Shown here in pieces: positions 2,146 to 39,459 of a stretch of 39,459 nucleotides of DNA (positions are counted from its first letter, which is position 1; the number at the start of each line of letters is the position of its first letter). Made by a program: the position numbers and the translations under genes. The notes under the pieces were generated by a model. It made no database searches and had not been told where the DNA came from. It saw only the letters and a program-made list of their open reading frames with translations. This DNA is from Acidobacteriaceae bacterium (lineage in GTDB: Bacteria; Acidobacteriota; Terriglobia; Terriglobales; Acidobacteriaceae), in contig PMWW01000199.1 of NCBI GenBank assembly GCA_003165795.1, positions 1 to 39,459 of the forward strand. The letters run 5' to 3'.

Positions 2146-3315
2146 TTGGCGACAGTGCTTCTAGCCCGGCAACTGCTGACTCCGCTCGAGCGCATTGATG
2201 ATGCCGCGCTTGTGATCGAGGACGGGATCATTTCGGCGATCGGGTCGCGCGATGCCGTTCCCCTTCCTGCGAATGCCCGAACCATCGACTTCGGTGACTC
2301 CATCCTTACGCCGGGAATGATTGACATCCACATTCATGGAGGGGCGGGACATGACGTGATGGAAGGTTCTGGCGAGAGCTTGACGGCCATTGAGCGGTTG
2401 CTGGTTCGCCATGGTGTGACAAGTTATTGTCCCACGACGGTCACTGCGCCGATGGATGAAACCCTCACGACACTGGCGGCCCTGGCCAAAGCCATCGAAG
2501 ACCGGGAGAGCCATGGTTCTGCTGATCCTCACCGTGCCCGCCCGCTGGGAATCCATCTGGAGGGTCCGTTTCTGAGCCATGCGCGCCGCGGCGTGCATCC
2601 GTCCATGTTTCTGCAGCCAGCTTCGACGGAGATCTTCAACCGCATGTGGGATGCCGCCGAAGGACGCATACGGATGCTCACCATCGCCCCCGAGTTGGAG
2701 GGCGCGCTGGATCTCATTACCGCCGTTTCACAACGCGGCGTGTGCGTCAGCATTGGTCATTCCAATGCCACTCTCGCGCAGGCAAACGCCGGCATCAAGG
2801 CGGGGGCGTGTCACGCGACCCACACCTTCAATGCGATGCGGCGGCTCGATCATCGCGACCCCGGGCTGCTCGGCGCAATTCTCACCGACCGAAGCCTCAC
2901 GGCCGACATGGTGGTTGACGGAGTCCACGTCGAACCGGTCGTGGTCGATCTCTTCCTGCGGGCGAAAGGGGTCGACGGCGCGGTCTTGATCACCGATGGC
3001 ATCAGCGCCACCGGCATGCCCGATGGGACCTACCGCCTGGGTTCGTTCGAAGTCGAGGTGCGCGCTGGCCGCTGTGAGTCGCATGGAAAGCTCGCGGGGA
3101 GTGTGCTGACCCTCGATCTCGCGGTGCGCAACGTGATGGCCTTTGCCAAAATGAGCCTTCAAGACAGCATTCGCATGGCCACGCTTAATCCTGCCCGGGT
3201 CCTGCGTATCGAACCCCGCAAAGGTGTTTTGCGGGCGGGCGCCGACGCCGACATCGTTGTCTGCTCTCCGGCCGGCGAGGTGCAACGGACTATCGTGGGC
3301 GGCATGCTGCAGTAA
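2146..3315 (+). CDS. nagA: N-acetylglucosamine-6-phosphate deacetylase
   Basis: This cytoplasmic amidohydrolase converts N-acetylglucosamine-6-phosphate to glucosamine-6-phosphate and acetate, in amino-sugar use and cell-wall recycling. The 389 residues match the normal NagA length. Amidohydrolase landmarks appear in order: LTPGMIDIHIHGG near residue 54 (metal-site HxH), HLEGPFL near 138 (Glu ligand), SIGHSNA near 203 and HTFNAM near 227 (His ligands), and ITDGISATG near 283 (catalytic Asp). The ADADIV segment near the end is also typical. TTG at 2146 is chosen because GAGG lies seven bases upstream and no in-frame ATG gives a full N-terminus. No nagB or transporter is adjacent, so it appears to be a lone gene. 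Confidence 0.95.
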   Translation: MATVLLARQLLTPLERIDDAALVIEDGIISAIGSRDAVPLPANARTIDFGDSILTPGMIDIHIHGGAGHDVMEGSGESLTAIERLLVRHGVTSYCPTTVTAPMDETLTTLAALAKAIEDRESHGSADPHRARPLGIHLEGPFLSHARRGVHPSMFLQPASTEIFNRMWDAAEGRIRMLTIAPELEGALDLITAVSQRGVCVSIGHSNATLAQANAGIKAGACHATHTFNAMRRLDHRDPGLLGAILTDRSLTADMVVDGVHVEPVVVDLFLRAKGVDGAVLITDGISATGMPDGTYRLGSFEVEVRAGRCESHGKLAGSVLTLDLAVRNVMAFAKMSLQDSIRMATLNPARVLRIEPRKGVLRAGADADIVVCSPAGEVQRTIVGGMLQ

Positions 3316-24788: not shown

Positions 24789-25232
24789 GTGAAACTTCAC
24801 ATCGCCTGGATTGGCCGGACCAAGAGCGCGCCCATCCAATCGTTGACGGCGGAATACCTGAAGCGGTTGTCGCGCTTCACCGCCTGCGACGCGCAGGAAT
24901 TGCTCTCGGAGAGCGCGCTGCTTAAGCTGGTAAAGAAGAGCGCTGGACGCACCCAGCCAGTGCTGGTGCTGCTGGACTCCCGTGGCCGCCAGCTCGACTC
25001 GCAAGAGATCGCTAACTTCCTTGAGTATCACCAGTCTCACGATACGCAAGAGCTGCTGTTCGCCGTAGGCCCGGCGGATGGCTGGAGCGACTCGATCCGC
25101 GCCGCAGCCAAGAGCATTCTGTCGTTTGGCAAGATCACCCTGCCGCACGAGCTGGCGCGAGTGGTGTTGCTGGAACAGCTCTATCGCGGCTTCACGATAC
25201 TGCAAGGCCATCCCTACCACGGGGGGCATTAG
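24789..25232 (+). CDS. rlmH: 23S rRNA pseudouridine-1915 N3-methyltransferase
   Basis: A 147-residue SPOUT-class methyltransferase acting on helix 69 of 23S rRNA. Landmarks are an N-terminal KLHIAWIGRTK start, LLDSRGRQLDSQEIA near residue 60, the S-adenosylmethionine knot LFAVGPADGWSD near 94, and the C-terminal LPHELARVVLLEQLYRGFTILQGHPYHGGH. The last residues fit the family exactly. The gene begins three bases after the rsfS stop. Confidence 0.97.
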   Translation: MKLHIAWIGRTKSAPIQSLTAEYLKRLSRFTACDAQELLSESALLKLVKKSAGRTQPVLVLLDSRGRQLDSQEIANFLEYHQSHDTQELLFAVGPADGWSDSIRAAAKSILSFGKITLPHELARVVLLEQLYRGFTILQGHPYHGGH

Positions 25233-25250
25233 CTTCAGGAGTTGCACCTC

Positions 25251-26105
25251 ATGAGGTTTCGCTTCGTTTATCTGTTACTCGGCCTCGCCTTCCTTCCGTC
25301 TCACATTGTGGGACAAGTGGCGAAGTCCGCCGGGTTTCCTCCGCTGGAGCAATGGAAGACTGCGGTGATCGCCGGCAACGCGGCCATGCTCAAGACTTTA
25401 TACAGCGCCGATCCCCCCGCTCGAATCGTGACCGTCGCCGGCGAGAGCAATACCGACGCCGCGGTTGCGTTCTGGACTGGCCTCAAGGCGCGTCGCATCA
25501 AGCTCGACATCATCCAGTCCGAGTCGCCGCAAGCGGGAGTCCAGCAAATCGTATTTCAGGCGGAGATTCTCTCCGCTGCGACTTCGCCGCCGCGCACGGT
25601 ATATGTCACTGAAGGTCAGCTCTGGCAGCAACAAGCGGGGCAATGGCGGCTGGCGGCAACCAAGCGCAGCGAGCCCACGCGGCTGCAACAGCCTACCTCG
25701 ACCAGTAAAGTCATCTACGCTCCCGGCCTAGATGCTCACGCTGAAATCAAAGAGGCTCTGGCGCAAGCCGCCCAGCAACACAAGCGCCTCATCGTCGTCT
25801 TCGGCGCCAACTGGTGTTACGACTGCCACGTCCTCGATCTGGCGTTTCATCGCACTGATGTTGCCGGCGTCCTGCAGCACTACTACGTTGTGGTACACAT
25901 CGACGTGGGCGAAGGCGACAAGAACCAGGACATCATGCAGCAATATCAGGTGCCGATGAAGAGGGGCATTCCCGCGCTCGCCGTGCTCGACAGCAACGGC
26001 AAACTGCTGTACAGCCAGCAGGGCGGCGAGTTCGAGAAGGCGCGCTCGCTAGCGCCGGAGGACGTGCTGGCCTTCCTCAACAAATGGAAGCCGGCCACGC
26101 CCTGA
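25251..26105 (+). CDS. Secreted protein, NTF2-like domain plus thioredoxin domain
   Basis: A 284-residue protein with a signal peptide (MRFRFVYLLLGLAFLPSHIVG). The first half (WKTAVIAGNAAMLKTLYS and then VYVTEGQLWQQQAGQWRLAAT) resembles an NTF2/SnoaL-like cup fold. The second half, from about residue 150, is a thioredoxin-like domain with GANWCYDCHVLD, giving a C-Y-D-C active site, and KRGIPALAVLDSNGKLLYSQQGG with the cis-Pro. Inference: a periplasmic thiol-disulfide protein. ATG at 25251 is chosen since AGGAG lies nine bases upstream. The TTG at 25242 touches that site. It follows rlmH after 18 bases. Confidence 0.85.
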   Translation: MRFRFVYLLLGLAFLPSHIVGQVAKSAGFPPLEQWKTAVIAGNAAMLKTLYSADPPARIVTVAGESNTDAAVAFWTGLKARRIKLDIIQSESPQAGVQQIVFQAEILSAATSPPRTVYVTEGQLWQQQAGQWRLAATKRSEPTRLQQPTSTSKVIYAPGLDAHAEIKEALAQAAQQHKRLIVVFGANWCYDCHVLDLAFHRTDVAGVLQHYYVVVHIDVGEGDKNQDIMQQYQVPMKRGIPALAVLDSNGKLLYSQQGGEFEKARSLAPEDVLAFLNKWKPATP

Positions 26106-26186
26106 GCGGATTGCCAGTGACCCAGAGGTTGCCCCCACAAAACGCCGGCGTGGGAAGCTGCAGAGCGTTGCCCTGGAGGTAGCGCT

Positions 26187-28553
26187 TCAGCGGTCCTGAT
26201 TGGCCTGCAGGGATGAAGCGTGCGCCCTGGCACGGCTGGCGTCTGCCGTGCGTCCTAGCCGCTGGTACAAGTTGGCCAGCTGCCGCCACGGCTGGGGATT
26301 GTCGGGCCTCAAATTTGCCGCTTGTTCCTGATAAGTAGTCGCCTTATCAAGCTCGCCAAGCCCAGCCCAGGCGCTCGCTCGCCCTTGCGCCATCTTGAAC
26401 TCGAATTGTCCGTTATCGGAGGGCTTCATGTTCCAGAAAGCGCTTCGGTCTGCCTTATCGAAGGCCGCCAGCGCGCTTTCTGGCTGTCCGACATCGAGGT
26501 AAAGGTCCCCCACCTTGAGCAACGACAACCAAGGCGTCATGGAGTAGCGGGCGGCGTGTTCCTCGGCGTCAATCGCCGCGGTGATCCGTCCTCGTTTAGC
26601 GTACGACTGCGCCAGTGAGTCCCAGGTGCTGTCATTGGGGTTGAGGGCGATCGCGACTAGATATTCCTGCTCCGACGCATCGAGGTGGCCGTCGGCAAAC
26701 AGCAGGTTGGCGCGCGACCAGTGCAGGAACGGGCTATCGGGGAAGATGGCAAGGCCTTTTTCGGTTGCGGCCAGCGCCTCGGCATTGCGTCCCAATGCAC
26801 CCAGAACCGAGGCAGCATTCGCCCAGGCATTGAACGCCTCTGCGCGATTGCTTCCCGGCGGTCGCACAGGCAAGGGCGCGGTGGCACAGTTCAGCGGAAA
26901 ACGCTGAATCAGCGCTTCCGTCTCCGGAGTGTGGCGCACGAATACTGCGGACACCTCGTCCAGGTAAACCAAGTTCCACAATTTACTGTTGCAAAAATCC
27001 GGGAGACGGATGAACTGAGTGCCTTGATAGCGCGCAATCGGCAGGATTACGGTGTTGATGTTGTAACGGCTTACTTCCTCTTGCCAGATCGCCGACTCCG
27101 GCGGGCTCTGCCGCAACTGGATTTCCCGCTCAATGCGTTCCAATCCGAACGGTATGCCGCGGCCATCGATATAATCGCGCCGCTGCGGACCGAGTCGCCA
27201 GCTCAGATAGCCGCCCAGGGTATAAGGGTTGAACACTTCTCCGGGAAGCTGCTCGCGTTCGATGAATTCAGCCGCTCGTTGCGGAAACCACCAGCCCAAG
27301 CCGGCGCCGAAGGTGCTTTCTTCCTGGGTGCGCAGGTAATAACGATTGGTGACCAAATCGAAGCAGCGCACCAAAGCGAGCACTACCAGTAGCCCAGCCA
27401 AAGTAGTCGCGAGAATCGAACGGGTTCTGGCCCGCCCGATCCAGGAGGCAATACCCGGCACCACTTCGGCGATAACGTATCCGCCAACCACTACGACCAC
27501 GCAGGAAAATACGCCGTCCATGCGGACGTAGCGTACCGCCGGAATCGTTGCTCCCAGCAGCAAAAGGCCTGCTCCTGGACGGTCGCGCAGCAACGCGATT
27601 CCGCCTGCGACCACGGCGAGCACCAGCAGCACATAAATCATGCCTCCGGGATCGCGCAGTGGAAGCGAATGGACGAGGTTCCAACTGAGAGGCAGGCTTT
27701 GCCACTCCCGGAACCAAGCCTGGTGGTAAGGCACGACGCGTTCTTGCCGCACCAGTGCCCGGTAAACGTCCCAACCCCAGGGATTCACCAGCGTCGCCAG
27801 CGCCGTACCCAGCAACCATGGGAATGCTCGACGAAGCCGTTCCAAGGCTGCGCGACGGCGCTCGGCGCCGAACAGCGATTCCAGCAGTTCCGTAACTACA
27901 TACATCCCGACGAGGGCCAGCCCCGCCGAGAAACCTAAATGAAGATTGACCCACGCCACCATGAGCAGTGGTAGCAACCACAGGCGGGCGTGGCCAGTTT
28001 CATAGTTCTCCCACAGCAGAGAAAGAAATGCGGCAAAGAGTACAACCGTGAACATGTCAGCCCGGGGAGCGGTGCGCCAGGCAATCAGCGGGACTGCGAC
28101 GATGGCAATGGCGGCGCTGACTGCCGAGCCTCGACGAAGCAGCAACGCCACCGAGCCACAGCACGCTGCGGCCCCAATCCAGGAAATAAGGGCAAATCCG
28201 CCAAGCAAATAAGCGGCGTAAAAAATCACGCCTGCGCCCAGCGGATAAATCCAATTGCCCTGCGCAATATAGGAGAAAGCTTCGACCGGCGGAGCGTGAT
28301 GATGCTGCAGCACCCAACGTCCGGTGGCCATTTGCCAGCCGAGATCGTAGTCCTTAATGGTTCGCAGGCCGGCCAGAAATGCGTAGATGAGCGCGGTGGC
28401 GGCAAGCACGTAAAACAGTCGCCGTTGTAGGGAAGAACGCTGAAGGCTTTCCGGCTGCGATGTGGTCGCGCCCGACAACCCGTCTACCGAATCGGCTGGC
28501 ACAACAAAGGACAAGGTCGAGGGTCGTAGGAAACGGCCGAGCGCGGAAGGCAT
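26187..28553 (-). CDS. Large polytopic membrane protein with TPR repeats
   Basis: A 788-residue protein with many hydrophobic segments in its first 420 residues (about ten to eleven), a middle extracytoplasmic domain with FNPYTLGGYLSWRLGPQRRDYIDGRG, and tetratricopeptide-like repeats from about residue 600 (AEALAATEKGLAIFPDSPFLHW and following) to the C-terminus. The layout suggests a GT-C-like or unassigned envelope protein of a type common in acidobacteria. No catalytic motif is asserted. It is convergent with the thioredoxin-like gene and alone on the minus strand. Confidence 0.85.
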   Translation of the reverse strand: MPSALGRFLRPSTLSFVVPADSVDGLSGATTSQPESLQRSSLQRRLFYVLAATALIYAFLAGLRTIKDYDLGWQMATGRWVLQHHHAPPVEAFSYIAQGNWIYPLGAGVIFYAAYLLGGFALISWIGAAACCGSVALLLRRGSAVSAAIAIVAVPLIAWRTAPRADMFTVVLFAAFLSLLWENYETGHARLWLLPLLMVAWVNLHLGFSAGLALVGMYVVTELLESLFGAERRRAALERLRRAFPWLLGTALATLVNPWGWDVYRALVRQERVVPYHQAWFREWQSLPLSWNLVHSLPLRDPGGMIYVLLVLAVVAGGIALLRDRPGAGLLLLGATIPAVRYVRMDGVFSCVVVVVGGYVIAEVVPGIASWIGRARTRSILATTLAGLLVVLALVRCFDLVTNRYYLRTQEESTFGAGLGWWFPQRAAEFIEREQLPGEVFNPYTLGGYLSWRLGPQRRDYIDGRGIPFGLERIEREIQLRQSPPESAIWQEEVSRYNINTVILPIARYQGTQFIRLPDFCNSKLWNLVYLDEVSAVFVRHTPETEALIQRFPLNCATAPLPVRPPGSNRAEAFNAWANAASVLGALGRNAEALAATEKGLAIFPDSPFLHWSRANLLFADGHLDASEQEYLVAIALNPNDSTWDSLAQSYAKRGRITAAIDAEEHAARYSMTPWLSLLKVGDLYLDVGQPESALAAFDKADRSAFWNMKPSDNGQFEFKMAQGRASAWAGLGELDKATTYQEQAANLRPDNPQPWRQLANLYQRLGRTADASRARAHASSLQANQDR

Positions 28554-28703
28554 GCAGAAAATATACTAGAACCTATGACATAAATCGTTTTGTATCAGGG
28601 CTCGGCAGGCTTGGCCTAATGTCCCGTCAGATTGACGAATCGCTTTCATTACGTAACCCTGATCCGCCTGCTTCAAGTCCAAAGCCAAACTCCACGCCCG
28701 CTC

Positions 28704-29009
28704 GACGGCTATGTGCCCGATTCGAATTTGGCGAGCCAATTGAACGGCAAGCGGCAGGCCGAAGACAGTGATCGTAGGCCGGTGCTGCATGCCGGGTTGC
28801 AGCGTATGCGGCAGACGCTGCGCACGGCGGAGGGCCGGCAGCGATATCAACGACGCAAAGAGTTGGTGGAACCGATGATCGGCAGCTTGAAGGAACACGG
28901 CGGCATGCGTGACTTCCAACGGCGTGGTCTCGCCAACGCGGCGGTGGAGTTCGTGCTGGCGGCCATCGCCTTGAACCTGAAACGTTGCTACCGGGTGCGG
29001 CAGCTCTGA
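28704..29009 (+). pseudogene. C-terminal fragment of an IS1182-like transposase
   Basis: This is the tail of a DDE transposase: DGYVPDSNLASQLNGK, then GLQRMRQTLRT, GRQRYQRRKELVEPMIGSLK (with the third catalytic Glu in VEP), and GMRDFQRRGLANAAVEFVLA, ending ALNLKRCYR. This order fits IS1182/IS5-type enzymes. The N-terminal two-thirds with the two Asp are missing, so it is inactive. No clear terminal inverted repeats or target duplication were found. The 28554-29307 gap otherwise holds repeats but no gene. Confidence 0.75.
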
Positions 29010-29147
29010 GCCCGCCGTGTAGTGAATCGGCCATCGAGTGACCTAGGGCCACCAAGGGCCAGTGTCGCAACCGTAACCCAATTTTCAAGTGGAACAAAAT
29101 CGCGCGAAAGCAGCTCCATCAGCCGCAACGCGGCGGAATGCTGTTAG

Positions 29148-29301
29148 CCGGGCCATAAGGCCCCGGTAACGCGGGAATTAGTCCGAGCCGCAGAGCGGCG
29201 ACACGGGTTGCGACCCAGTCTCTGAAGGCCGTGCCCCTTCAACGTACCGACTTAGTCAGAGCTTGCTTAGCTGAAGGCTGAAGGCTGATAGCTGACGGCT
29301 G
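29148..29301. repeat. Cluster of short hairpins and a 7-bp tandem repeat
   Basis: GGGCC-ATAA-GGCCC (29150-29163), TGAAGG-N7-CCTTCA (29223-29241), and four tandem 7-bp units of the form CTGANRG (29271-29298) sit between the transposase remnant and the end of pyrH. Similar tetraloop hairpins recur in the ribosomal cluster at 36134-36194 and at 37437, which suggests a dispersed repeat family. Confidence 0.6.
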
Positions 29302-29307
29302 TCCCGC

Positions 29308-30027
29308 TTATCCCTCGTTGACCAGCGAGCCTATGCGCTCGCCCATGACCACCCGCTGAATATTGCCACGCCGGTTCAGATTGAAGATCACGATGGGCAG
29401 GTTGTTCTCGCGGCAAAGCGCGATCGCCGTCGCATCCATCACTCGCAGCCCCAGCCGCAGCACATCCATGTAACTGATGGTCTCGAACATGGTCGCCTCT
29501 TTCACCAGCACCGGATCGGCGGTGTAAATGCCGTCGACCTTGGTGGCTTTGAGGATGGCGTCAGCCTTGATCTCCATGGCGCGCAGCGAAGCGGCCGTGT
29601 CGGTGGAGAAATACGGATTGCCGGTACCGCCGGCAAACACCACCACCCGGCCTTTCTCCAAATGGCGGATGGCGCGGCGGCGGATGAACGGCTCGGCCAC
29701 CTGGTTCATCTCGATGGCGCTCATCACCCGGGTGAAAACGTTTTGCTTCTCCAGTGCATCCTGCAGCGCTAGCGCGTTAATCACCGTGGCCAACATGCCC
29801 ATGTGATCGGCGGAGACGCGGTCCATCAGCTTGGCTTGCTCGGCGACGCCGCGGAAGAAGTTGCCGCCGCCGACTACGATTGCGATCTCGATTCCCAGGC
29901 GATGTACCTCGCCAATTTCGGCGGCGATCTCGTGCACACGTTGGTTGTCGACGCCAAACCCTTGTCCTGCGGCCAGTGCCTCGCCGGAAATTTTTAGCAG
30001 GATGCGTTTGTAAACCGGAGTGCTCAT
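29308..30027 (-). CDS. pyrH: Uridylate kinase
   Basis: A 239-residue enzyme that phosphorylates UMP to UDP. Motifs: [11 protein letters not shown] near residue 7, [13 protein letters not shown] near 50, DHMGMLAT near 73, [18 protein letters not shown] near 133, and [12 protein letters not shown] near 164. All are standard for bacterial UMP kinases. The ATG at 30027 is preferred. The longer frame to 30198 adds a leader unlike the family and runs under recQ. In most bacteria pyrH follows tsf directly, but here recQ and the RT-protease gene, both on the plus strand, separate them. frr, the usual next gene, is absent downstream. Confidence 0.96.
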
Positions 30028-30187
30028 GCTTGGCAGATACCTAACTGGGGATTGCCCATTCAGTTTAGCAGGCTCTTCGTCAAGAATAGGCAGATTGCAG
30101 CAGTGGAGAGTCTTCAGGATAAGCCCTTTGTAGATTGCCGGACTTTCATCCCAGCCGACTACGATACAGTAGATTCGAGACCCAATC

Positions 30188-31732
30188 ATGGACAGCATCG
30201 ACGATCTCCTGCAACGGGTCTTCCAGCTTGCGCAGTTTCGTCCTCATCAGCGGGAGATTATCCAGGATGTCGTCGCAGGCAACGATGTCGTATGCGTAAT
30301 GCCGACGGGCGCGGGCAAGAGCCTGTGCTTCCAACTTCCAGCGTTGATGCTGCAAGGCCTTACCGTCGTAGTCTCTCCTTTAATCTCGCTGATGGCAGAT
30401 CAGGTGAAACAACTGCAGCGGCTGAATGTTCCCGTTCTATTCATGAATAGCTCGCAGAGCCAGGAGGAGCAGCGCGAAGTTTTTTCCGAACTGAAACAAG
30501 GTTTTTCGGGACTGCTCTACGTGGCGCCCGAGCGATTCCCGACACCATCGTTCCAGCGCATACTCCCAGAGCTGAAGACACGACTTTTTGTCGTGGACGA
30601 AGCCCATTGTTTGAGTTTTTGGGGACATGATTTCCGTCCGGAATATATGCGCCTGGCCGAGGTGCGCGAGCGACTGGGATCGCCGGTCACCATGGCGTTG
30701 ACTGCGACGGCCACCCCGCAAGTCCGTGACGACATAGTAAGAATGCTCAAGCTGCGCAGTCCCAAGCTACATGTGACTGGCTTCGATCGTCCCAACCTCA
30801 CCTACGCCTGCCGCCGCATGGATACGGAGGCCCAAAAGGATGCGGCGCTGCTGAACGGTCTTTCCCGGCAATTGGGCAGCGGCATCGTCTACTGTTCGAC
30901 TCGCCGGATGGTCGAACAACTGGCGGCACTGTTCGCAGAGCGCTTTCCTACTCGCACGGTGCGCGCGTATCACGCCGGCATGAACGCTGACGCTCGCAAG
31001 CAGAGCCAGGAAGACTTCATGGCGAACGCCGGCGCGGTGGTGGTGGCGACCAATGCGTTTGGCATGGGGATCAATAAGACTGACATACGCTTTGTGGTGC
31101 ATTACAACATTCCCGCCAGCCTGGAGGCGTACTACCAGGAGGCTGGCCGCGCAGGTCGTGACGGTCGCTCTGCGCAGTGCATTTTGTACTGCAGTCCGCG
31201 TGATCGCTTTACCCAGGAGTACTTCATCGACAAAATTGGCGAGAACAACTCCGTGCTTTCGCCCGAGCAAATTACAACTCTGCAAGCCTATGCCCGGCAG
31301 AAGCTGGATCAGGTATTTCAGTATGCCTATCGATCGCGCTGCCGTCGCCGCGCGATTCTCGACTATTTTGGCGACAGCACTCCGGTTGCGCAATGCGCCT
31401 GTGATGTTTGCCGCGGAGACGTTCGCTCTCCCCCGGCCGGGGTCACTGTGGCGACACGGCGTGTTGCCAAGCCGAAGCCTAAGCGGACCCTTTCAGATGA
31501 CGACCATCTTGATCCGGCCGCCGAGCTACGATTCGAGCGCTTGCGGAAAGTGCGAGCAGAATTGGCGGCGGAAAATAAGTGGCCAGCTTTCTGTATCGCG
31601 CATGATTCGGTCTTGCGCGAAGTGGCACGGGTCGCGCCGAAATCGCTGGATGCGCTGTCGGAAATAAGCGGAATAGGCGCGAAGAAGCTGAAGAAGTTTG
31701 GAAACGCTCTTCTCAAGGCAGTCCGGGATTAG
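30188..31732 (+). CDS. recQ: RecQ-type ATP-dependent DNA helicase without winged helix
   Basis: A 514-residue 3'-5' helicase. Motif 0 ([10 protein letters not shown]) precedes Walker A MPTGAGKS (38-45), then [17 protein letters not shown] (137-153, where most RecQ have SQWGHDF), [49 protein letters not shown], and [11 protein letters not shown] zinc knuckle with C-R...CACDVC follows near residue 380-420. After a short Lys/Pro-rich linker comes an HRDC domain ([31 protein letters not shown]). The winged-helix RQC domain of longer RecQ proteins appears to be missing. It is 240 bases upstream of the RT-protease gene, same strand. Confidence 0.93.
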
Positions 31733-31972
31733 TGTGGCGCGTTGCTCTGCCGTCCGGGCTCCTTCGAGCTTCAGGAACTATGTTGTAAACACATCGCGAG
31801 GGTGTATTGGCAAACAATGACGTGCGCATTATCACAAGTGGATTGACTTGCCATATATGATGTAGTCGGCTGCATTGGCTTGCGCCGATTGGCACTGGTT
31901 GTTTATCGTGCAACCGTATTGACAATGTGTGCAGAAACGACCGCGCGCGACTCATAAGGTTGGCGTCTGGTC
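31733..31972 (+). ncRNA. Candidate retron msr-msd RNA region
   Basis: The 240-base leader between recQ and the RT-protease has no reading frame and is unlike the flanking GC-rich coding sequence. It holds stacked stem-loops: AATG-CATT with a CG extension (31816-31830), CAAGT-N6-ACTTG (31835-31850), TCGGC...GCA-N6-TGC...GCCGA (31866-31888, eight pairs with one bulge), and GGTTG-N9-CAACC (31897-31915). Known: retron RTs are preceded by an msr-msd RNA. A long a1/a2 repeat was not found (best six pairs: ACACAT at 31790-31795 with ATGTGT at 31925-31930), so the exact RNA ends are unknown. Confidence 0.4.
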
Positions 31973-33631
31973 ATGTCGCAAAGCGAGAATCGGTCAGGCC
32001 AAGCAGCCACCCTAGGAATGTGCTCGACAACTCATCCACCGCCCCGCACAAACGGCGACCTAGCGCGTTTGCTTGACGTATCTGAACGATATCTCAAATT
32101 GGTTCTGCGTTCGGGTCTCCGGTATTCGGTTTTTCGGATTACCAAGAAATCCGGAGGAACCCGCGAAATAGCAGCGCCAAGCGATCCAATTAAGCAATTG
32201 CAGCATAGATTGCTTCATTATCTCGAAACAGTGTATACCGGTCGAAGCTCTGCCCATGGGTTCATTAAGCAGCGATCGATCAGAACAAATGCTGAACCGC
32301 ATTCCCGGACTCGCTATGTATTTAATCTCGACCTAGAGAACTTCTTCCCATCCATTCACTTTGGACGGGTGAGAGGTCTACTGATGGGGAAACCTTACTT
32401 CTGGGGTAAGAAGGCGGCAACATCCGCGGCCAATCTTTGCTGCAGGGATACCGTCTTGCCGCAGGGTGCCCCAACGTCCCCTATCATCGCCAATATGGTA
32501 TGCGCAAAGTTGGACAGCGAGCTGAAGACCCTCGCAAAGAAGTTTCACGCTACATACACACGCTATGCTGACGACATAACTTTCTCGACGATGTCGCAGA
32601 GTTTTCCGAAAGTTCTTGCTGTACACGCAGGAGAATTGACTCGGCAGGTTGAGGTTGGCGACGAACTGAGAAAGATAATCGAGTCGAATGGTTTTAGTGT
32701 GAACACGAAGAAGACCCGTCTAGCCCGCCATGAGCGTCAGGAGGTAACGGGCCTAACCACTAATCGGTTCCCGAATGTTCAGCGCCGATTTGTTCGTCAG
32801 ATTAGGGCAATGATACATGCGTGGCGAAGGCATGGACTCGACAAGGCTCAGAGTGAGTACTGGACCAAGTTCGACCACCGCAATCGCCAAGGAAAGCGTC
32901 CATCCTTTGCCCGTGTAGTTAGGGGAAAGATTGAGTTTGTCGGCAGCGTGCGTGGGAAGACTGATCCGATTTATTGGCGACTGCTTCGGCAATATGCCGA
33001 TCTCTACGTCCGGGATGTGGACCGTAATTATCAGCTTCGTGAGCCAGACGGGTTCGTGGAGTACGATTTTCGAGAACTCAAAAAGGCCATATGGGTGCTG
33101 TTCGACAAGACCACCCTTCAGCAGAGCACAGCGTTTTGCCTGAAGAATGTTGGCCTAGTAACATGCGACCACGCGATCGGAGATCCCGGGAGTCTGGTCG
33201 TATTCCAGTCGCGAGACCCATTGATGACCGAATATCCCGTGCGCTTGTTGAGCCGAGATCAAAAACTAGACCTTGCGATCCTCGAAGCCCCATTCCAAGT
33301 TCCGAAGTGGTTGTTGGCCGGCGACGATGACGCCATCAAGCAACGCGACCTTGTACGCCTCCTAGGCTTCCCGCAGCATCACAATGGTGCGGACGTTTCC
33401 ATCTCCGAGGGATACGTCGTGCATGAATATAAATTCGAAAACGTTCGCCGTTTTCACATTAGTGCCTCAATCATTCATGGCAACAGTGGGGGACCTGTGC
33501 TTAATTCGGAGAACCGGGTCATTGGTGTTGCCATAAAGGGTGGCCAAGACGAGCTTAACGGAGTCGTCCCAATTAGTTACGCTTCCCGACTATCCCTATC
33601 AACTGCCCCAACACCTAGCGACCAAGCATAA
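31973..33631 (+). CDS. Retron-type reverse transcriptase fused to trypsin-like protease
   Basis: A 552-residue fusion. RT domain (about 25-350): NAEPH (106-110, the retron NAxxH motif), FNLDLENFFPSI with catalytic Asp 120, LPQGAPTSP (162-170), YADD (198-201), SVNTKKTRL (242-250), and VTG (258-260, the retron VTG motif). Protease domain (about 365-540): His 400 in VTCDHAI, Asp 433 in KLDLAIL, and Ser 505 in GNSGGP, a complete triad of trypsin type. No signal peptide or membrane helix, so it is cytoplasmic. The composition is more A/T-rich than the flanks, suggesting transfer. AAGG lies about 12 bases before ATG 31973, a weak site. Inference: the RT makes an msDNA that gates the protease, a defence-like toxin. 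Other protease-fused RTs exist, and I do not assign a retron type. Confidence 0.9.
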   Translation: MSQSENRSGQAATLGMCSTTHPPPRTNGDLARLLDVSERYLKLVLRSGLRYSVFRITKKSGGTREIAAPSDPIKQLQHRLLHYLETVYTGRSSAHGFIKQRSIRTNAEPHSRTRYVFNLDLENFFPSIHFGRVRGLLMGKPYFWGKKAATSAANLCCRDTVLPQGAPTSPIIANMVCAKLDSELKTLAKKFHATYTRYADDITFSTMSQSFPKVLAVHAGELTRQVEVGDELRKIIESNGFSVNTKKTRLARHERQEVTGLTTNRFPNVQRRFVRQIRAMIHAWRRHGLDKAQSEYWTKFDHRNRQGKRPSFARVVRGKIEFVGSVRGKTDPIYWRLLRQYADLYVRDVDRNYQLREPDGFVEYDFRELKKAIWVLFDKTTLQQSTAFCLKNVGLVTCDHAIGDPGSLVVFQSRDPLMTEYPVRLLSRDQKLDLAILEAPFQVPKWLLAGDDDAIKQRDLVRLLGFPQHHNGADVSISEGYVVHEYKFENVRRFHISASIIHGNSGGPVLNSENRVIGVAIKGGQDELNGVVPISYASRLSLSTAPTPSDQA

Positions 33632-33656
33632 CAGGGCGGGAATGATCCCCGCCCTG
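33632..33656. terminator. Bidirectional hairpin between RT-protease gene and tsf
   Basis: CAGGGCGGG (33632-33640) pairs perfectly with CCCGCCCTG (33648-33656) across a seven-base loop, directly after the RT-protease stop and 26 bases from the tsf stop. T-rich bases follow on the plus side (CCTTTAAC). It would stop the two convergent transcripts. Confidence 0.7.
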
Positions 33657-33682
33657 CCTTTAACTGGTGACTTGGAGCTCAT

Positions 33683-34339
33683 TTACTCCCCGGCCGTATC
33701 GCCAACCTTGCTGACCGCGATGGTCTCGCCTATGTCGCCAACCTTGAAGCGGGCGAAGCGGCGGATGGAAATGTTTTCACCCAGCTTGCCGATGGTGGTG
33801 GCGATCAGTTGCGCGACAGTGATGGTCTGCTCTTTGATGAAGGGCTGCTCGTACAGACACACCTCCTCGTAGAACTTGGCCATCTTGCCTTCGACGATCT
33901 TCTCGATCACCGGAGCCGGCTTGCCGGTCGCGCCCGCCTGCGCGCGATAGATGTCCTTCTCCTTTTCGAAAGCTTCGGGAGTGACATCTTCCTTGCGGAC
34001 GAAGCGCGGATCGGTAGCTGCGATGTGCATCGCGATATCGTGTACCAGGCCCTTGAAGTCGTCGGTGCGGGCGACGAAATCGCTCTCGCAATTCACCTCA
34101 ACCAGCACGCCGATCTTGCCTCCGGCGTGGATGTAGCTGGCCACCGAGCCTTCGCTGGTGGCGCGGGTGGCCTTCTTGGCGGCCGTGGCAATGCCCTTCT
34201 TGCGCAGGATGACGATGGCACCTTCAACGTCGCCCTTACTTTCGGTAAGGGCGTTCTTGCAATCCATCATGGGTGCATTGGTTTTGTCGCGAAGCTCTTT
34301 AACTTGTGCGGCGGAAATGTTCACGGATGTAGTGCTCAT
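33683..34339 (-). CDS. tsf: Translation elongation factor Ts
   Basis: A 218-residue nucleotide exchange factor for EF-Tu. The N-terminal UBA-like domain has [29 protein letters not shown], then the two dimer-like EF-Tu-binding subdomains with [15 protein letters not shown], a short form lacking part of the longer E. coli domain. ATG at 34339 gives the conserved start, with GAAAG close upstream. A longer frame to 34432 adds unlike residues. It belongs to the rpsB-tsf unit, but a strong terminator and a large inverted repeat lie between them. Confidence 0.96.
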
Positions 34340-34358
34340 CTTTCGGGAAAACCCTTTC

Positions 34359-34488
34359 GCTATTCGCATTTCGCTCTTCGTTGTTCGCCAGAGAACGAAA
34401 CACGGCCGTATAAAATCTATGTCCCTATTCATCTTTCACCGCCTCGCTCAACCTTCTGGCGAAGAGCGAACGGCGATAAGCGAATAGC
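34359..34488. repeat. Large imperfect inverted repeat between rpsB and tsf
   Basis: Two 34-base arms, 34359-34392 and 34455-34488, are inverted relative to each other. Both outer nine-base blocks (TCTGGCGAA and GCGAATAGC, reading the right arm) match perfectly and the middle portions differ. The 62-base centre is A/T-rich. This may be a small mobile or interspersed element or a structured RNA. It lies in the leader of tsf. Confidence 0.7.
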
Positions 34489-34494
34489 GGCTGT

Positions 34495-34525
34495 AAAAAC
34501 GCCCGCGCTGCATTGACGCGCGGGC
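34495..34525 (-). terminator. Intrinsic terminator after rpsB
   Basis: On the minus strand GCCCGCGC pairs with GCGCGGGC (eight pairs, 34501-34508 and 34518-34525) around a nine-base loop and is followed by G then five T (34495-34499). This is a standard Rho-independent terminator between rpsB and tsf, so tsf may have its own promoter or be made by read-through. Confidence 0.85.
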
Positions 34526-34556
34526 CAGGAAACTACTCGTTGTCTCGACCGATTGC

Positions 34557-35435
34557 TTAGGCGTTGGTGCTCTCTGCGGCAGCGCGCCGGCCGCCCTTGC
34601 CCAGCACTTCTTCCATGCTGACTTCTTCGGAATCGTCGATGCTCGACACGGGAGCGGCGGCGGTTTCCTCGCCTTCGGGACTGGCCGCGGCTGCTTCGGC
34701 AGCCTCGCTGTACTGCACGCCGGCCGAGAGGTCGGCCATCTGCTTGTCGGTAGCGGCCTGCGAGCCCTCGACCACCGAGTCGGCAATCTTGGAGGCGAAC
34801 AACCGAATGGCGCGCAGCGCGTCGTCGTTACCGGGAATCACGTAATCCACTTCAGTTGGATCGCAGTTGGTATCGACCACGGCGACCACCGGAATGCCCA
34901 GCTTGCGCGCTTCCTTTACCGCGATCTGCTCCTTGTTGGAGTCGATCACGAACAGCGTGTCCGGCAAGCGGTTCAGGTTCTTGATGCCCGCCAGGTTGGC
35001 TTGCAAGTGCTTGCGCTCGCGCTCCAACTTCACAACTTCTTTTTTCGGCAGCAGCTCGTAGCGGCCATCGGTGGCCATCTCGTCCAGTTCCTTCAGCCGC
35101 TTCACCGATTTCTGCACCGTCACCCAGTTGGTCAGCAGCCCGCCCAGCCAGCGCTGGTTCACGTAGAACATGCCGCAGCGGGTCGCTTCTTCCGCGATCG
35201 CATCCTGCGCCTGGCGTTTAGTGCCGACAAACAGCACTAGCTTGCCTTCGGACGCCATGTCCTGCACGAACTTCGACGCTTCCTTGAACATCTTCAGCGT
35301 CTTCTGCAGATCGATGATGTAAATGCCATTGCGTTCGCCAAAGATGAATTCCTTCATCTTCGGGTTCCAGCGTTTCGTCTGATGCCCGAAGTGAACGCCC
35401 GCTTCGAGCAACTCCTTCATCGTAATATTTGCCAA
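34557..35435 (-). CDS. rpsB: 30S ribosomal protein S2
   Basis: S2 binds near the head of the small ribosomal subunit. The 292 residues have the family core: [81 protein letters not shown], and [12 protein letters not shown]. It extends about 60 residues past the core with an Ala/Glu/Ser-rich acidic tail. The start is TTG at 35435 since AGGAGG lies five bases upstream. A later ATG at the MKELLEAG position is possible. Confidence 0.97.
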
Positions 35436-35598
35436 GCTACCTCCTAGGTTGGCTTGCATCCTTTGCGGCGGCTTTGGTCAGCCGGTCGCTCGGGATTGCT
35501 TTCCCCGTCACCCGCTCTGTTGAGGATGCGGGAAGATTTCGTTCCGGTTGATGTTGTGTGCCTCGCCCCCGGAACCAAAAGGCGAGAATAGGGGGTCA

Positions 35599-35651
35599 GG
35601 GACTAGGTTCTAGGGGTTAGCGATTGAGCCTAGCCCCTAAAACCTAGTCCC
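35599..35651 (-). repeat. Near-perfect 53-base hairpin between rpsI and rpsB
   Basis: 18-base arms (GGGACTAGGTTCTAGGGG and its complement) pair with a single mismatch, and an inner CTAG adds more pairs. The hairpin lies 12 bases after the rpsI stop and 164 bases before the rpsB start, on the shared transcript. It could be an interspersed palindromic repeat or an attenuator/processing site that separates the two messages. No T run follows. Confidence 0.75.
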
Positions 35652-35662
35652 TAGTCCCTTCT

Positions 35663-36058
35663 TTATCTCTTCGAGAACTGGAAGCGCTTACGAGCGCCCT
35701 TCTGACCGTACTTCTTGCGCTCTTTCTCGCGAGCATCGCGGCGCAGGAAGCCTTCAGCTTTCAGCTTGGGGCGCAGCTCAGGATTAAACTCCTGCAACGC
35801 GCGCGCAATTCCCATACGCACCGCACCGGCTTGGCCGTTCACGCCACCGCCCTTGACGGTGCAGGTGATGTTGAAGGTGCCGCTGGTCTCGGTCAGCACT
35901 AGGGACGACTTCGCCATGATGCGCTGCGCCTCGGTGACAAAGTGCTCGTCAAAGGCTTTGCCGTTGACCTTGAACTCGCCGCTGCCCGGGCGAAGGAACA
36001 CGCGAGCCACGCTCGATTTGCGCCGACCCGTACCGTAATACTGAACCAATTCTGCCAT
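35663..36058 (-). CDS. rpsI: 30S ribosomal protein S9
   Basis: A 131-residue ribosomal protein whose C-terminal tail reaches the P-site tRNA. It has [20 protein letters not shown] at the start, [27 protein letters not shown] in the middle, and the invariant C-terminus ending RFQFSKR. ATG at 36058. It is cotranscribed with rplM upstream, a universally conserved pair. Confidence 0.98.
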
Positions 36059-36133
36059 CGTTATCCGTCGGGAGCCTGGCTCCCTTTGATCCTTCCCAGA
36101 AAATTTGATGGGTCCTTAATCAGGACCTGAAGG

Positions 36134-36194
36134 GGCGTGCCTTCAGGCACGCCGAATCCGCTTCTCAAATAACTCCAGCGGGCTTCAGCCCGCT
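36134..36194. repeat. Two perfect tetraloop hairpins between rplM and rpsI
   Basis: GGCGTGCC-TTCA-GGCACGCC (36134-36153, eight pairs) and AGCGGGC-TTCA-GCCCGCT (36177-36194, seven pairs) share the same TTCA loop. They lie in the 139-base space between rplM and rpsI. Both look like units of a dispersed repeat family that also occurs near 29150 and 37437. Inference: mRNA processing or stability elements. Confidence 0.75.
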
Positions 36195-36197
36195 TGC

Positions 36198-36632
36198 CTA
36201 CTTGGCAACTGCGGCCAGCGCTTCCGGCTTCTGCGCCGAGTGAGGATGCTTGTCGTCGCGATAGACCTTCAGCTTGCCGGCCATGGCGCGCCCCAGCTTG
36301 GTGTGGGGCAGCATTCCGGTGATGGCCTCTTCCACAATCCGCTCCGGCTTGCGAACCAGCCGCTTCTTGTACTCCTCGGACTTCATGCCACCGGGGTATC
36401 CGGAGTAGTTGTAATAAACCTTGTTGTCGGCCTTGAGTCCCGAAATGTGGATCTTGGCCGCATTGATCACAATGACGTGATCGCCGGTGTCCATGAACGG
36501 AGTGTACTTGGGGCTGTCTTTGCCAGAGAGGATGCGCGCCACACGACTAGCCAACCGGCCCAGAATCTGGCCGTCGGCATCAATGACAAACCACTTGCGC
36601 GCAATTTCCCCCTTGGGGAAATAGGTTGACAT
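36198..36632 (-). CDS. rplM: 50S ribosomal protein L13
   Basis: A 144-residue ribosomal protein. It contains [17 protein letters not shown] near residue 13, [23 protein letters not shown] near residue 35, and the [12 protein letters not shown] signature near residue 108. The start ATG at 36632 has GAGAG upstream. It heads the minus-strand transcript with rpsI, rpsB and tsf. Confidence 0.98.
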
Positions 36633-36877
36633 CTCTAAACTCTCCCAGTATTTGAAAAAACCGCGAAAGAGCCGCTTGGTTCAGGCGCTGGACGCGCAGA
36701 GACCTTCAGGCGGGCAAACGCAGGACTACGAAAGATTTAAGAATAAACCACGGGCGCTGCGCTTGTCAATAAAACGGCGGCACAGGCCCTCGCGGGTAGG
36801 ATTCGTCGTTGCCGTCTACCTCCGATGGCTTTCACCCTCCATCGTCGGCTTACCGCTCAGCGCCGCGTCCCGCGCGC

Positions 36878-37399
36878 CTAGCCACCATATCTCCTGGCGA
36901 TGAAAACTCCGAAGACGATGTGGAGCAGGCCGAAGCCGACCCCCAGCACGACGTTCGCCCAAAACCAGGGCAAAGGCAGTGCGACCGCGCCCATCACAAC
37001 GAAAGCCGCTCCCATGGCGGGTACGGCGCGAACCGAGAATGCTCCCGCCTGCATCACTGCGACTCCGTAGAGCACCAGCCACACGCCGGGAATCAGCCGC
37101 AACGGCCCACTCCACATCAAGGCGATGGTCAGCAAACCGCCGGCAGCTAGCGCCGGCAGCAATCCGACGAACAGCCGTCGTCCCGAGATCGACAGCATCT
37201 TATTCCGCAGCCGGATCGTCTTCCGATGCATGGTGGCCAGCGCGATCGTCACCGCGACCAATGCTTCGGCGAGCCAGACCGCCAGCCATCCATCGGGCGT
37301 GACCTGCCTCAGTGCGATGGGAGCGGCAATGAGTGCCGTCACTCCCATGGCGCACAATCCCCAGCCGGGCACGGCGGTAAATGCTGAACTGCGTTCCAT
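36878..37399 (-). CDS. Polytopic membrane protein, unknown
   Basis: A 173-residue protein with about five hydrophobic segments (LCAMGVTALIAAPIAL, LAVWLAEALVAVTIALA, LLPALAAGGLLTIALM, VWLVLYGVAVMQAGAF, VVMGAVALPLPWFWANVVLGVGFGLLHIVFGVFIA) and no catalytic motif I recognise. Between the second and third segments lies a basic stretch, HRKTIRLRNKML. It lies between clpB and rplM on the minus strand with space on both sides, so it is likely a single gene. Confidence 0.75.
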   Translation of the reverse strand: MERSSAFTAVPGWGLCAMGVTALIAAPIALRQVTPDGWLAVWLAEALVAVTIALATMHRKTIRLRNKMLSISGRRLFVGLLPALAAGGLLTIALMWSGPLRLIPGVWLVLYGVAVMQAGAFSVRAVPAMGAAFVVMGAVALPLPWFWANVVLGVGFGLLHIVFGVFIARRYGG

Positions 37400-37436
37400 G
37401 GTCTGGCGGATTATACCCAGATTGTCGACCGTTCGA

Positions 37437-37456
37437 AGCCAGCCTAAAGGCTGGCT
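37437..37456. repeat. Perfect eight-pair hairpin after clpB
   Basis: AGCCAGCC-TAAA-GGCTGGCT lies 30 bases beyond the clpB stop. It has the same design as the hairpins at 36134 and 36177 (7-8 pairs and a four-base loop). It may act as a terminator-like 3' end for clpB, but no T run follows. Confidence 0.7.
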
Positions 37457-37485
37457 CTACCGCGCCTTTTCGAATCGGAGTCCGT

Positions 37486-39459
37486 TTACTTCACCGCCGC
37501 CGCTTTCGCCGGTTCGCCCACCCGCTTGGCCACCTTGAAGGTCAGCTTGGGTTGCTTTTTGTCGGCATCGACCACGATGTGATCGCCGTGCAGCACTTCG
37601 CCATCGAGAATCTTCATCGCCAGCGGATCCTGTACCAGCTTTTGAATGGCGCGCTTCAGCGGACGCGCTCCATAATTCGGATCGTAGCCTTCAGTGAAGA
37701 TCATCTCCTTCGCCGCCGCCGTCAGCTCCAGGCTGATCTTGCGAGCGGCCAGCAGCTTCCGCAAATCTTCCAGCCGCAGGTCAACGATCTTCGTCAACTG
37801 CTCCTTGCCCAGCGGGTTGAAGATGATGATGTCATCCACGCGGTTGAGGAACTCGGGCTTGAAGTGCGCGCGCAGCGCTTCCATCACCCTCTGATGCGCT
37901 TCCGTAATCTGCTCGGCGTCGTGATGTAATCCCATGTCTTGCAGATACGCCGATCCGATGTTCGACGTCATGATCAGGATCGTGTTCTTGAAGTCGACCA
38001 CGCGGCCCTTGCCGTCGGTCAGGCGGCCATCGTCCATGATCTGCAGGAAGATGTTGAATACATCCGGATGCGCTTTCTCGATTTCGTCGAATAGCACCAC
38101 GGCGTACGGCCGGCGGCGAATCGCTTCGGTCAACTGCCCGCCTTCGTCGTAGCCCACATATCCCGGAGGCGCGCCGATCAGCCGCGACACCGAATGCTTC
38201 TCCATGTACTCCGACATGTCGATGCGCACCATAGCATGCTCATCGTCGAACAAGAACTCGGCCAGCGCTCGCGCCAACTCGGTCTTGCCCACGCCGGTCG
38301 GTCCCAAGAAGATGAACGAGCCAATCGGCTTGCGCGGATCGCTCAATCCCGCGCGTGAACGCCGTATCGCATTGGCGACATGTTGCAACGCGTCGTCCTG
38401 CCCAATCACGCGCTCCCGCAAGCGTTCTTCCATGGTGACCAGCTTCTTCACTTCGCCTTCCAGCATCTTCGACACCGGAATGCCGGTCCACTTGCTGACG
38501 ATCTTGGCGACGTCTTCCTCGTCGACCTCTTCCTTCAACATGCGCGACTGCTTGCCGTCCATGGCTGCGCTCAGCTTCGCCACCTCGGCCTCAAGCTGCG
38601 GCAGCTCGCCATACTTGATCTGCGCCGCGCGATTGTAGTCACCCTTGCGTGTCGCTTCCTGCTCTTCCAGCTTCAGCCGCTCGATGCGCTCCTTCGCCTC
38701 GCGCACTTTGGCGATAGCTTCCTTCTCCTGCTTCCAGCGCGCTTTCAGGGCATTGGCATCTTCCTTGATATGCGCCAGCTCTTTTTCCGCGATCGTCAGC
38801 CGCTCGCGCGAGTTGGCATCGTCTTCACGCTTCAACGCCTGCCGCTCGATCTCAAGCTGCGTGGCGCGCCGTTCGAGCTGGTCGATCTCGGTCGGCATGG
38901 AATCGATCTGGATGCGCAGTGACGCCGCGGCCTCGTCGATCAAGTCGATTGCCTTGTCCGGCAGGAAGCGGTCGGAGATATAGCGATGCGACAGGGTCGC
39001 GGCCGCCACAATCGCTGAATCCTTGATGCGCACGCCGTGATGCACTTCATACTTCTCGCGCAGGCCGCGCAGAATCGCGATGGTGTCTTCCACGTTGGGC
39101 TCGCCCACAAATACGATCTGGAAGCGGCGCTCCAGCGCTGCATCTTTCTCGATGTACTTACGGTATTCGTTCAGCGTGGTGGCGCCAATCGCGCGCAACT
39201 CACCGCGGGCCAGTGCCGGCTTCAGCATGTTCGAAGCATCAATCGCGCCTTCAGCCGCGCCGGCTCCCACCAGCGTGTGCAGCTCGTCGATGAACAGAAT
39301 GATCTGTCCCTGCGACTGCTCAATTTCTTTCAACACCGCTTTCAGGCGGTCTTCAAATTCGCCACGATACTTCGCGCCCGCCAGCATCGCGCCCAGATCG
39401 AGCGACACCACGCGCTTGTTCTTCAACTGCTCGGGAACGTCGCCGGAAATGATGCGCTG
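37486..39459 (-). CDS. clpB: ATP-dependent chaperone ClpB, 5' end beyond window
   Basis: A protein disaggregase that works with DnaK. The visible 657 or so residues run from within the first AAA+ domain to the end: [14 protein letters not shown] and the sensor region with [12 protein letters not shown], then a helical middle domain rich in Glu/Lys/Arg (about residues 190-310 of the visible part), and the second AAA+ domain with [38 protein letters not shown] and [10 protein letters not shown]. The middle domain distinguishes ClpB from ClpA and ClpC. The N-terminus and first Walker A lie beyond 39459. No sign of decay is seen. Confidence 0.97.

Follow-up and report, generated by a model that had tools for sequence, protein, structure and literature searches.

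The stretch of DNA analyzed here (the window) comprises 39,459 nt, namely positions 1 to 39,459 of the forward strand of contig PMWW01000199.1 from an Acidobacteriaceae bacterium (assembly GCA_003165795.1). Between its recQ and tsf genes lies an inserted piece made up solely of a leader and a gene coding for a reverse transcriptase (RT) fused to a protease, in which we recognize the following features:

31868..31890, + strand: a1 arm GGCTGCATTGGCTTGCGCCGATT, forming 21 bp with a2 and covarying in 26 relatives
31888-31890 with 31988-31990: ATT at the inner end of a1 and AAT, a conserved mini-helix
31891, + strand: candidate branching (priming) guanosine, from alignment to rG15 of Retron-Eco2; G31887 is the alternative
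31897..31915, + strand: putative msr stem-loop GGTTG-TTTATCGTG-CAACC, a homologous covarying hairpin in 26 relatives that is included in the covariance model match
31917..31987, + strand: short single strand and then the putative msd template (~60-65 nt), from its position between the msr hairpin and a2
around 31939-31970, + strand: hairpin in the RNA within the msd part
within 31917..31987, + strand: 3' element AAGCGAGAAT, which runs into a2 and is conserved in relatives
31988..32008, + strand: a2 arm AATCGGTCAGGCCAAGCAGCC, inside the over-extended ORF starting at 31973
32018..33631, + strand: RT-protease gene from its likelier start, ATG 32018 (the mechanical ORF start is 31973)
32138..32758, + strand: reverse transcriptase domain RVT_1 with NAxxH, YADD and VTG motifs
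33128..33529, + strand: trypsin-like protease domain Trypsin_2 with the triad H400, D433, S505 (numbered from 31973)

The protein is recovered by the PADLOC RT-Protease_XI profile (E 7.5e-168 over residues 26-538) and is classed as a retron RT by PADLOC, NCBIfam and PDB matches alike. Both its RVT_1 and Trypsin_2 (E 1e-20) domains lie in intact open frames with all catalytic residues present: the protease triad and D120, D200, D201, N106, H110, T259 and G260 are invariant in 44 type XI proteins, with A107, A199 and V258 being nearly so. In the AlphaFold model (mean pLDDT 89.9, pTM 0.72), structure comparison matches residues 15-354 to Retron-Eco2 (Ec67, type I-C, RT-Toprim; Z 31.9), with the match ending at 354-362, and residues 363-547 to the Deg/HtrA proteases (Z about 24). 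Eco2, which is the nearest solved RT in sequence too (E 2.3e-52), has a Toprim effector, whereas the C-terminal domain of the window protein, where type I-C would call for Toprim, is Trypsin_2. Likewise, type XII (RT-TIR), which gives the next-best PADLOC score for the RT core (E 7e-120), carries a TIR effector, in place of which the window has the protease. The fusion of a retron RT to a trypsin-like protease with its catalytic triad in a single gene is the architecture of type XI (RT-protease; Mestre classification in PADLOC), whose loci across many phyla possess, as in the window, a leader with a1/a2 and an msr hairpin; the window protein shares no more than about 31-41% identity with the type XI relatives that we fetched.

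A first-pass annotation had described the 240 bases from 31733 to 31972 as a structured leader devoid of genes, with four stem-loops in a row (31816-31915), and had proposed it as the retron ncRNA of the RT-protease. The absence of a gene is borne out: the sole ORF of at least 80 aa there, an 80-aa frame on the minus strand (31713-31955) overlapping the end of recQ and the leader, is not credible. The structure stands only in part. As a whole, the 240 bases are unremarkable (z +0.91; 162 of 200 shuffles at least as well folded), and 31816-31915 contains two hairpins with perfect stems of 5 bp or more (31835-31850 and 31897-31915), as against a mean of 0.74 in dinucleotide shuffles, 14% of which reach two. 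Both hairpins that had been called strong exist; however, the one at 31866-31888 (-10.9 kcal/mol, one bulged base) is formed largely by the a1 arm, in competition with the a1/a2 pairing, whereas that at 31897-31915 is the msr stem-loop. The stem-loop at 31835-31850 and most of that at 31866-31888 fall outside the conserved fold.

The picture changes with the borders: the 141 nt from 31868 to 32008 fold with a z of -3.76 (about -3.8), unequalled by any of 500 shuffles, and 31863-32017 with a z of -3.41. Here, GGCTGCATTGGCTTGCGCCGATT (31868-31890) and AATCGGTCAGGCCAAGCAGCC (31988-32008) form a 21-bp helix in which two bases are bulged. Thus, the long a1/a2 repeat that had been reported as missing is present; it was overlooked because the stretch ended at ATG 31973, with a2 lying beyond it. 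The accompanying guess that the RNA ends might be in the flanks was therefore right, and there is no need to suppose that this clade uses another RNA lacking a long a1/a2: the earlier finding identified the right kind of element but set the wrong borders. The helix is equalled in 1 of 300 shuffles of the region and ranks second among 231 tiles over the whole window; strict scoring was used in the helix scans, as lenient gap costs gave long meaningless helices. By itself, a1/a2 is hence unlikely to be due to chance, yet not overwhelming, and the case rests on the relatives. The same holds for the msr hairpin, which, when the RNA is folded without constraints, lies 0.8 kcal/mol above the optimum and forms only a minor state (pair probability 0.135); it is therefore asserted on homology. 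Taken as DNA, the presumed msDNA strand folds no better than shuffles (z +0.70, with guessed strand borders). No Rfam family matches the window at either gathering or permissive thresholds, and ten related loci yielded only a tRNA and chance matches; a scan for sigma-70 promoters and terminators gave background levels only. By eye, there is a TATGAT at 31856-31861, 6 bases ahead of a1, missed by the promoter scan and accompanied by no convincing -35, which might be a -10 element placing +1 at ~31868.

For the comparison of leaders, related RT loci were gathered from plasmids, genome contigs, viral contigs and genomes of the phylum; as a lone query against the genome contigs the window protein found no close relatives, and an alignment query was needed. 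The leaders of the relatives display strict a1/a2 helices immediately before the RT gene, with those of several cyanobacterial loci lying farther upstream, where they were found after extending the search in that direction. Across 48 non-redundant type XI leaders (the window included), the best helix scores a mean of 33.6 versus 20.8 in both shuffles and coding stretches of the same loci, and in 38 of them an a1/a2-like helix beats all 20 shuffles. In the type XI relative L039, GGTCG-TTGATCCTG-CGACC occupies the position of the window's msr stem-loop. We then took the sequence group that most resembles the window leader, aligned its 26 leaders without that of the window, and scored a structure of 12 a1/a2 pairs and 7 hairpin pairs. 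It is paired in 89.9% of the cells and attains a covariation of 0.700, as against 0.313 in shuffled alignments (0 of 500 as high) and at most 0.235 when slid; the slid control favors the structure since the latter was fitted to these leaders, whereas the compensatory counts are independent of the fitting. RNAalifold recovers the same structure unprompted from the 26 leaders. The three branch-proximal pairs are ATT/AAT in nearly all of them, with the compensatory variants GTT/AAC and ATC/GAT, and the column aligned with G31891, directly after a1, is G in 19 and another base in 7.

The covariance model built from this alignment (R1), and hence blind to the window, has a single match there at E<=10: positions 31865-32012 on the + strand, 21.1 bits, full length, with all 19 model pairs standard and none broken, at an E-value (0.01) that is modest and rests on a rough calibration. 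With filters off, the next best score in 25000-39459 is 7.7 bits. A search with R1 of 506 kb of retron loci (74 sources) gave 19 matches at E<=1, every one of them directly upstream of an RT and on the same strand. Thus, the check with homologous leaders that the first-pass annotation had suggested bears out its proposal of a retron ncRNA: a model made without the window matches exactly here, and the relatives share the covarying fold.

The ORF from 31973 reads through a2. ATG 32018 is the likelier start of the gene, because: it lies 10 nt after a2, a spacing comparable to the 3-12 nt in many type XI relatives; residue 26 is the first to align with the PADLOC RT-Protease_XI profile, at position 8 of the latter; in an otherwise confident model, pLDDT is below 50 over residues 1-13 of the long ORF; and residue 2 of the Eco2 protein aligns to model residue 15. 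A parallel is seen in E. coli S10 (L204, 436 onward), where the RefSeq start of the Eco2 RT gene falls within the msr-msd RNA of that retron, which is the same annotation artefact as that of the window. As a separate observation, in the leaders of the alphaproteobacterial-type type XI loci L017, L070, L081, L086, L094, L101, L109 and L111 a GTG start sits inside the a2 arm or at its very edge, a placement that could couple translation of the RT to the folding of the RNA.

The layout of the leader recalls that of Eco2, in which a1 is followed by the branch rG15, four single-stranded bases, the msr stem-loop rG20-rU42, a short single strand (PMC12405507), a 67-base msd and then a2 (PMC12405507; the order was also read from the E. 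coli S10 DNA). In the window, the order is a1 (31868-31890), G31891, a few bases, the stem-loop (31897-31915), ~70 bases with the msd and a2; moreover, the five pairs GGTTG/CAACC of the msr stem are identical in the two, although R1 does not find Eco2. Three marks of a retron are in place: an RT of retron type with YADD, NAxxH and VTG; an RNA gene beside it with complementary a1 and a2; and, by homology, an msr stem-loop (31897-31915) with predicted recognition by the RT. Hence, we consider it very probable, on sequence grounds, that 31868-32008 (+) is the msr-msd RNA of a type XI retron, whose partner is the single RT-protease gene at 32018-33631. The sequence supports a 21-bp a1/a2, a conserved msr stem-loop, a template of msd length (candidate borders about 31925-31987) and an RT joined to a protease of the HtrA/DegQ kind, the catalytic residues being intact.

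Retrons are a kind of bacterial anti-phage system. By analogy, we infer that msDNA would be produced here and would restrain the protease until infection, along the following lines. Going by retron biology, transcription of the RNA would accompany or immediately precede that of the RT message, and the RT would bind the msr stem-loop and the a1/a2 end. It would then prime at the 2'-OH of the guanosine beside a1, with G31891 as the candidate, and synthesize from the msd (about 31925-31987) a short DNA that stays attached to the msr RNA. Within the complex so formed of RT-protease and msDNA, the protease might be held inactive; damage to or sequestration of the msDNA by a phage might then free it, with the infected cell ceasing to grow (abortive infection). 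Such an abortive-infection scheme, with its own effector, has been proposed for the sister RT-Toprim system Eco2 (PMC12405507). A trypsin-like protease is also part of a defence system in the nuclease-protease antiviral pairs, as in the window; there, however, the protease activates a neighboring nuclease (PMC12799240), whereas the window insert holds only the leader and the RT-protease.

Three other explanations deserve to be weighed against this. What separates recQ from the RT might be no more than a 5' leader or intergenic spacer of the ordinary sort, with stem-loops arising by chance or serving local translation control only; a2, being next to the start codon, could mask the ribosome site. 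The chance-level folding of 31733-31972, its hairpin count and the lack of an Rfam match would all fit such a spacer, but the shifted region 31868-32008 folds far better than chance and a model derived from other leaders matches it with every covarying pair kept. To this may be added two sister genomes of the same genus that lack leader and gene together: in one (L199, around 3020-3200), the recQ-tsf interval is about 150 bases long, and in the other (L200, 837-1432), it has a ParE-type toxin and putative antitoxin instead. As the element is missing whole from both, leader and gene were gained or lost as a unit, with no other partner gene accompanying the retron; on sequence comparison, what lies between recQ and tsf varies within the genus. 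Hence, the spacer explanation is, in our estimate, highly improbable.

To a use of the RNA other than that in retrons, e.g., as a structural cofactor in template-free or protein-primed synthesis of the type seen in some DRT systems, we assign an even slighter probability. It draws on the msDNA of the RT-protease being derived here from retron biology, and two reports (PMC13275509, PMC12483538) describe some defence RTs as working in this manner; against it, the RT scores as a retron RT with the NAxxH and VTG motifs of retrons (motif list in PMC12405507), and the RNA has the Eco2 layout of a1/a2, msr hairpin and msd length. Finally, this could be a decayed retron with a recognizable RNA that has lost its function, as the absence of the RT from all eight other genomes of the genus that were searched and the weak msDNA fold with its guessed borders might suggest. 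The intact RT and protease frames with all catalytic residues, and the retention of every modelled base pair, make this too very improbable, albeit the least so of the three. We accordingly retain the type XI msr-msd RNA as the best explanation of the leader.

The window leader belongs to a group with a UUGAUCCUG-like msr loop, which it has in common with cyanobacterial and Chloroflexota retrons, unlike most proteobacterial type XI leaders. Further, four RTs that are 47-51% identical to the window RT core have very similar msr leaders but other C-terminal parts: a Schlafen AlbA_2 domain in L033 and a Toprim_I-C profile match in L020, whereas L018 and L021 have a separate unnamed gene and an ATPase. 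Effectors thus appear, from the sequences, to have been swapped on a conserved RT and msr. This leads to a broader proposal, which we advance tentatively and regard as rather doubtful at present: the leaders of type XI, cyanobacterial and Chloroflexota RTs may constitute one RNA family outside Rfam, in which the msr module is kept while the effectors are swapped and gene callers hide a2. It would be defined by a covarying a1/a2, a single msr hairpin whose loop resembles UUGAUCCUG and, right beside the priming guanosine, a clamp of three pairs (ATT/AAT), and its effectors would include protease, Schlafen-like, Toprim-like and unnamed ones. If this family is real, gene callers mask a2 by placing the start of the RT gene within the RNA.

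PADLOC catalogues type XI retrons and also employs msr-msd covariance models (PMC9252829). Our literature search, beyond whose reach lay the founding retron classification papers, found no report of an RNA or mechanism for an RT-protease retron. The present analysis provides exact, testable borders for the RNA of such a retron and a corrected start codon for its gene. It also points to a general trap, in that an over-extended RT gene can hide a2, which searches restricted to "intergenic" sequence then miss. A defined msr-msd opens the way to a test of msDNA restraint on a protease effector, and the RT may serve as a DNA-writing tool. Elsewhere in the window, a shortened transposase fragment (28632-29009, + strand; DDE_Tnp_1_6, E 2e-14) adjoins a pyrH-like gene at 29308-30198.
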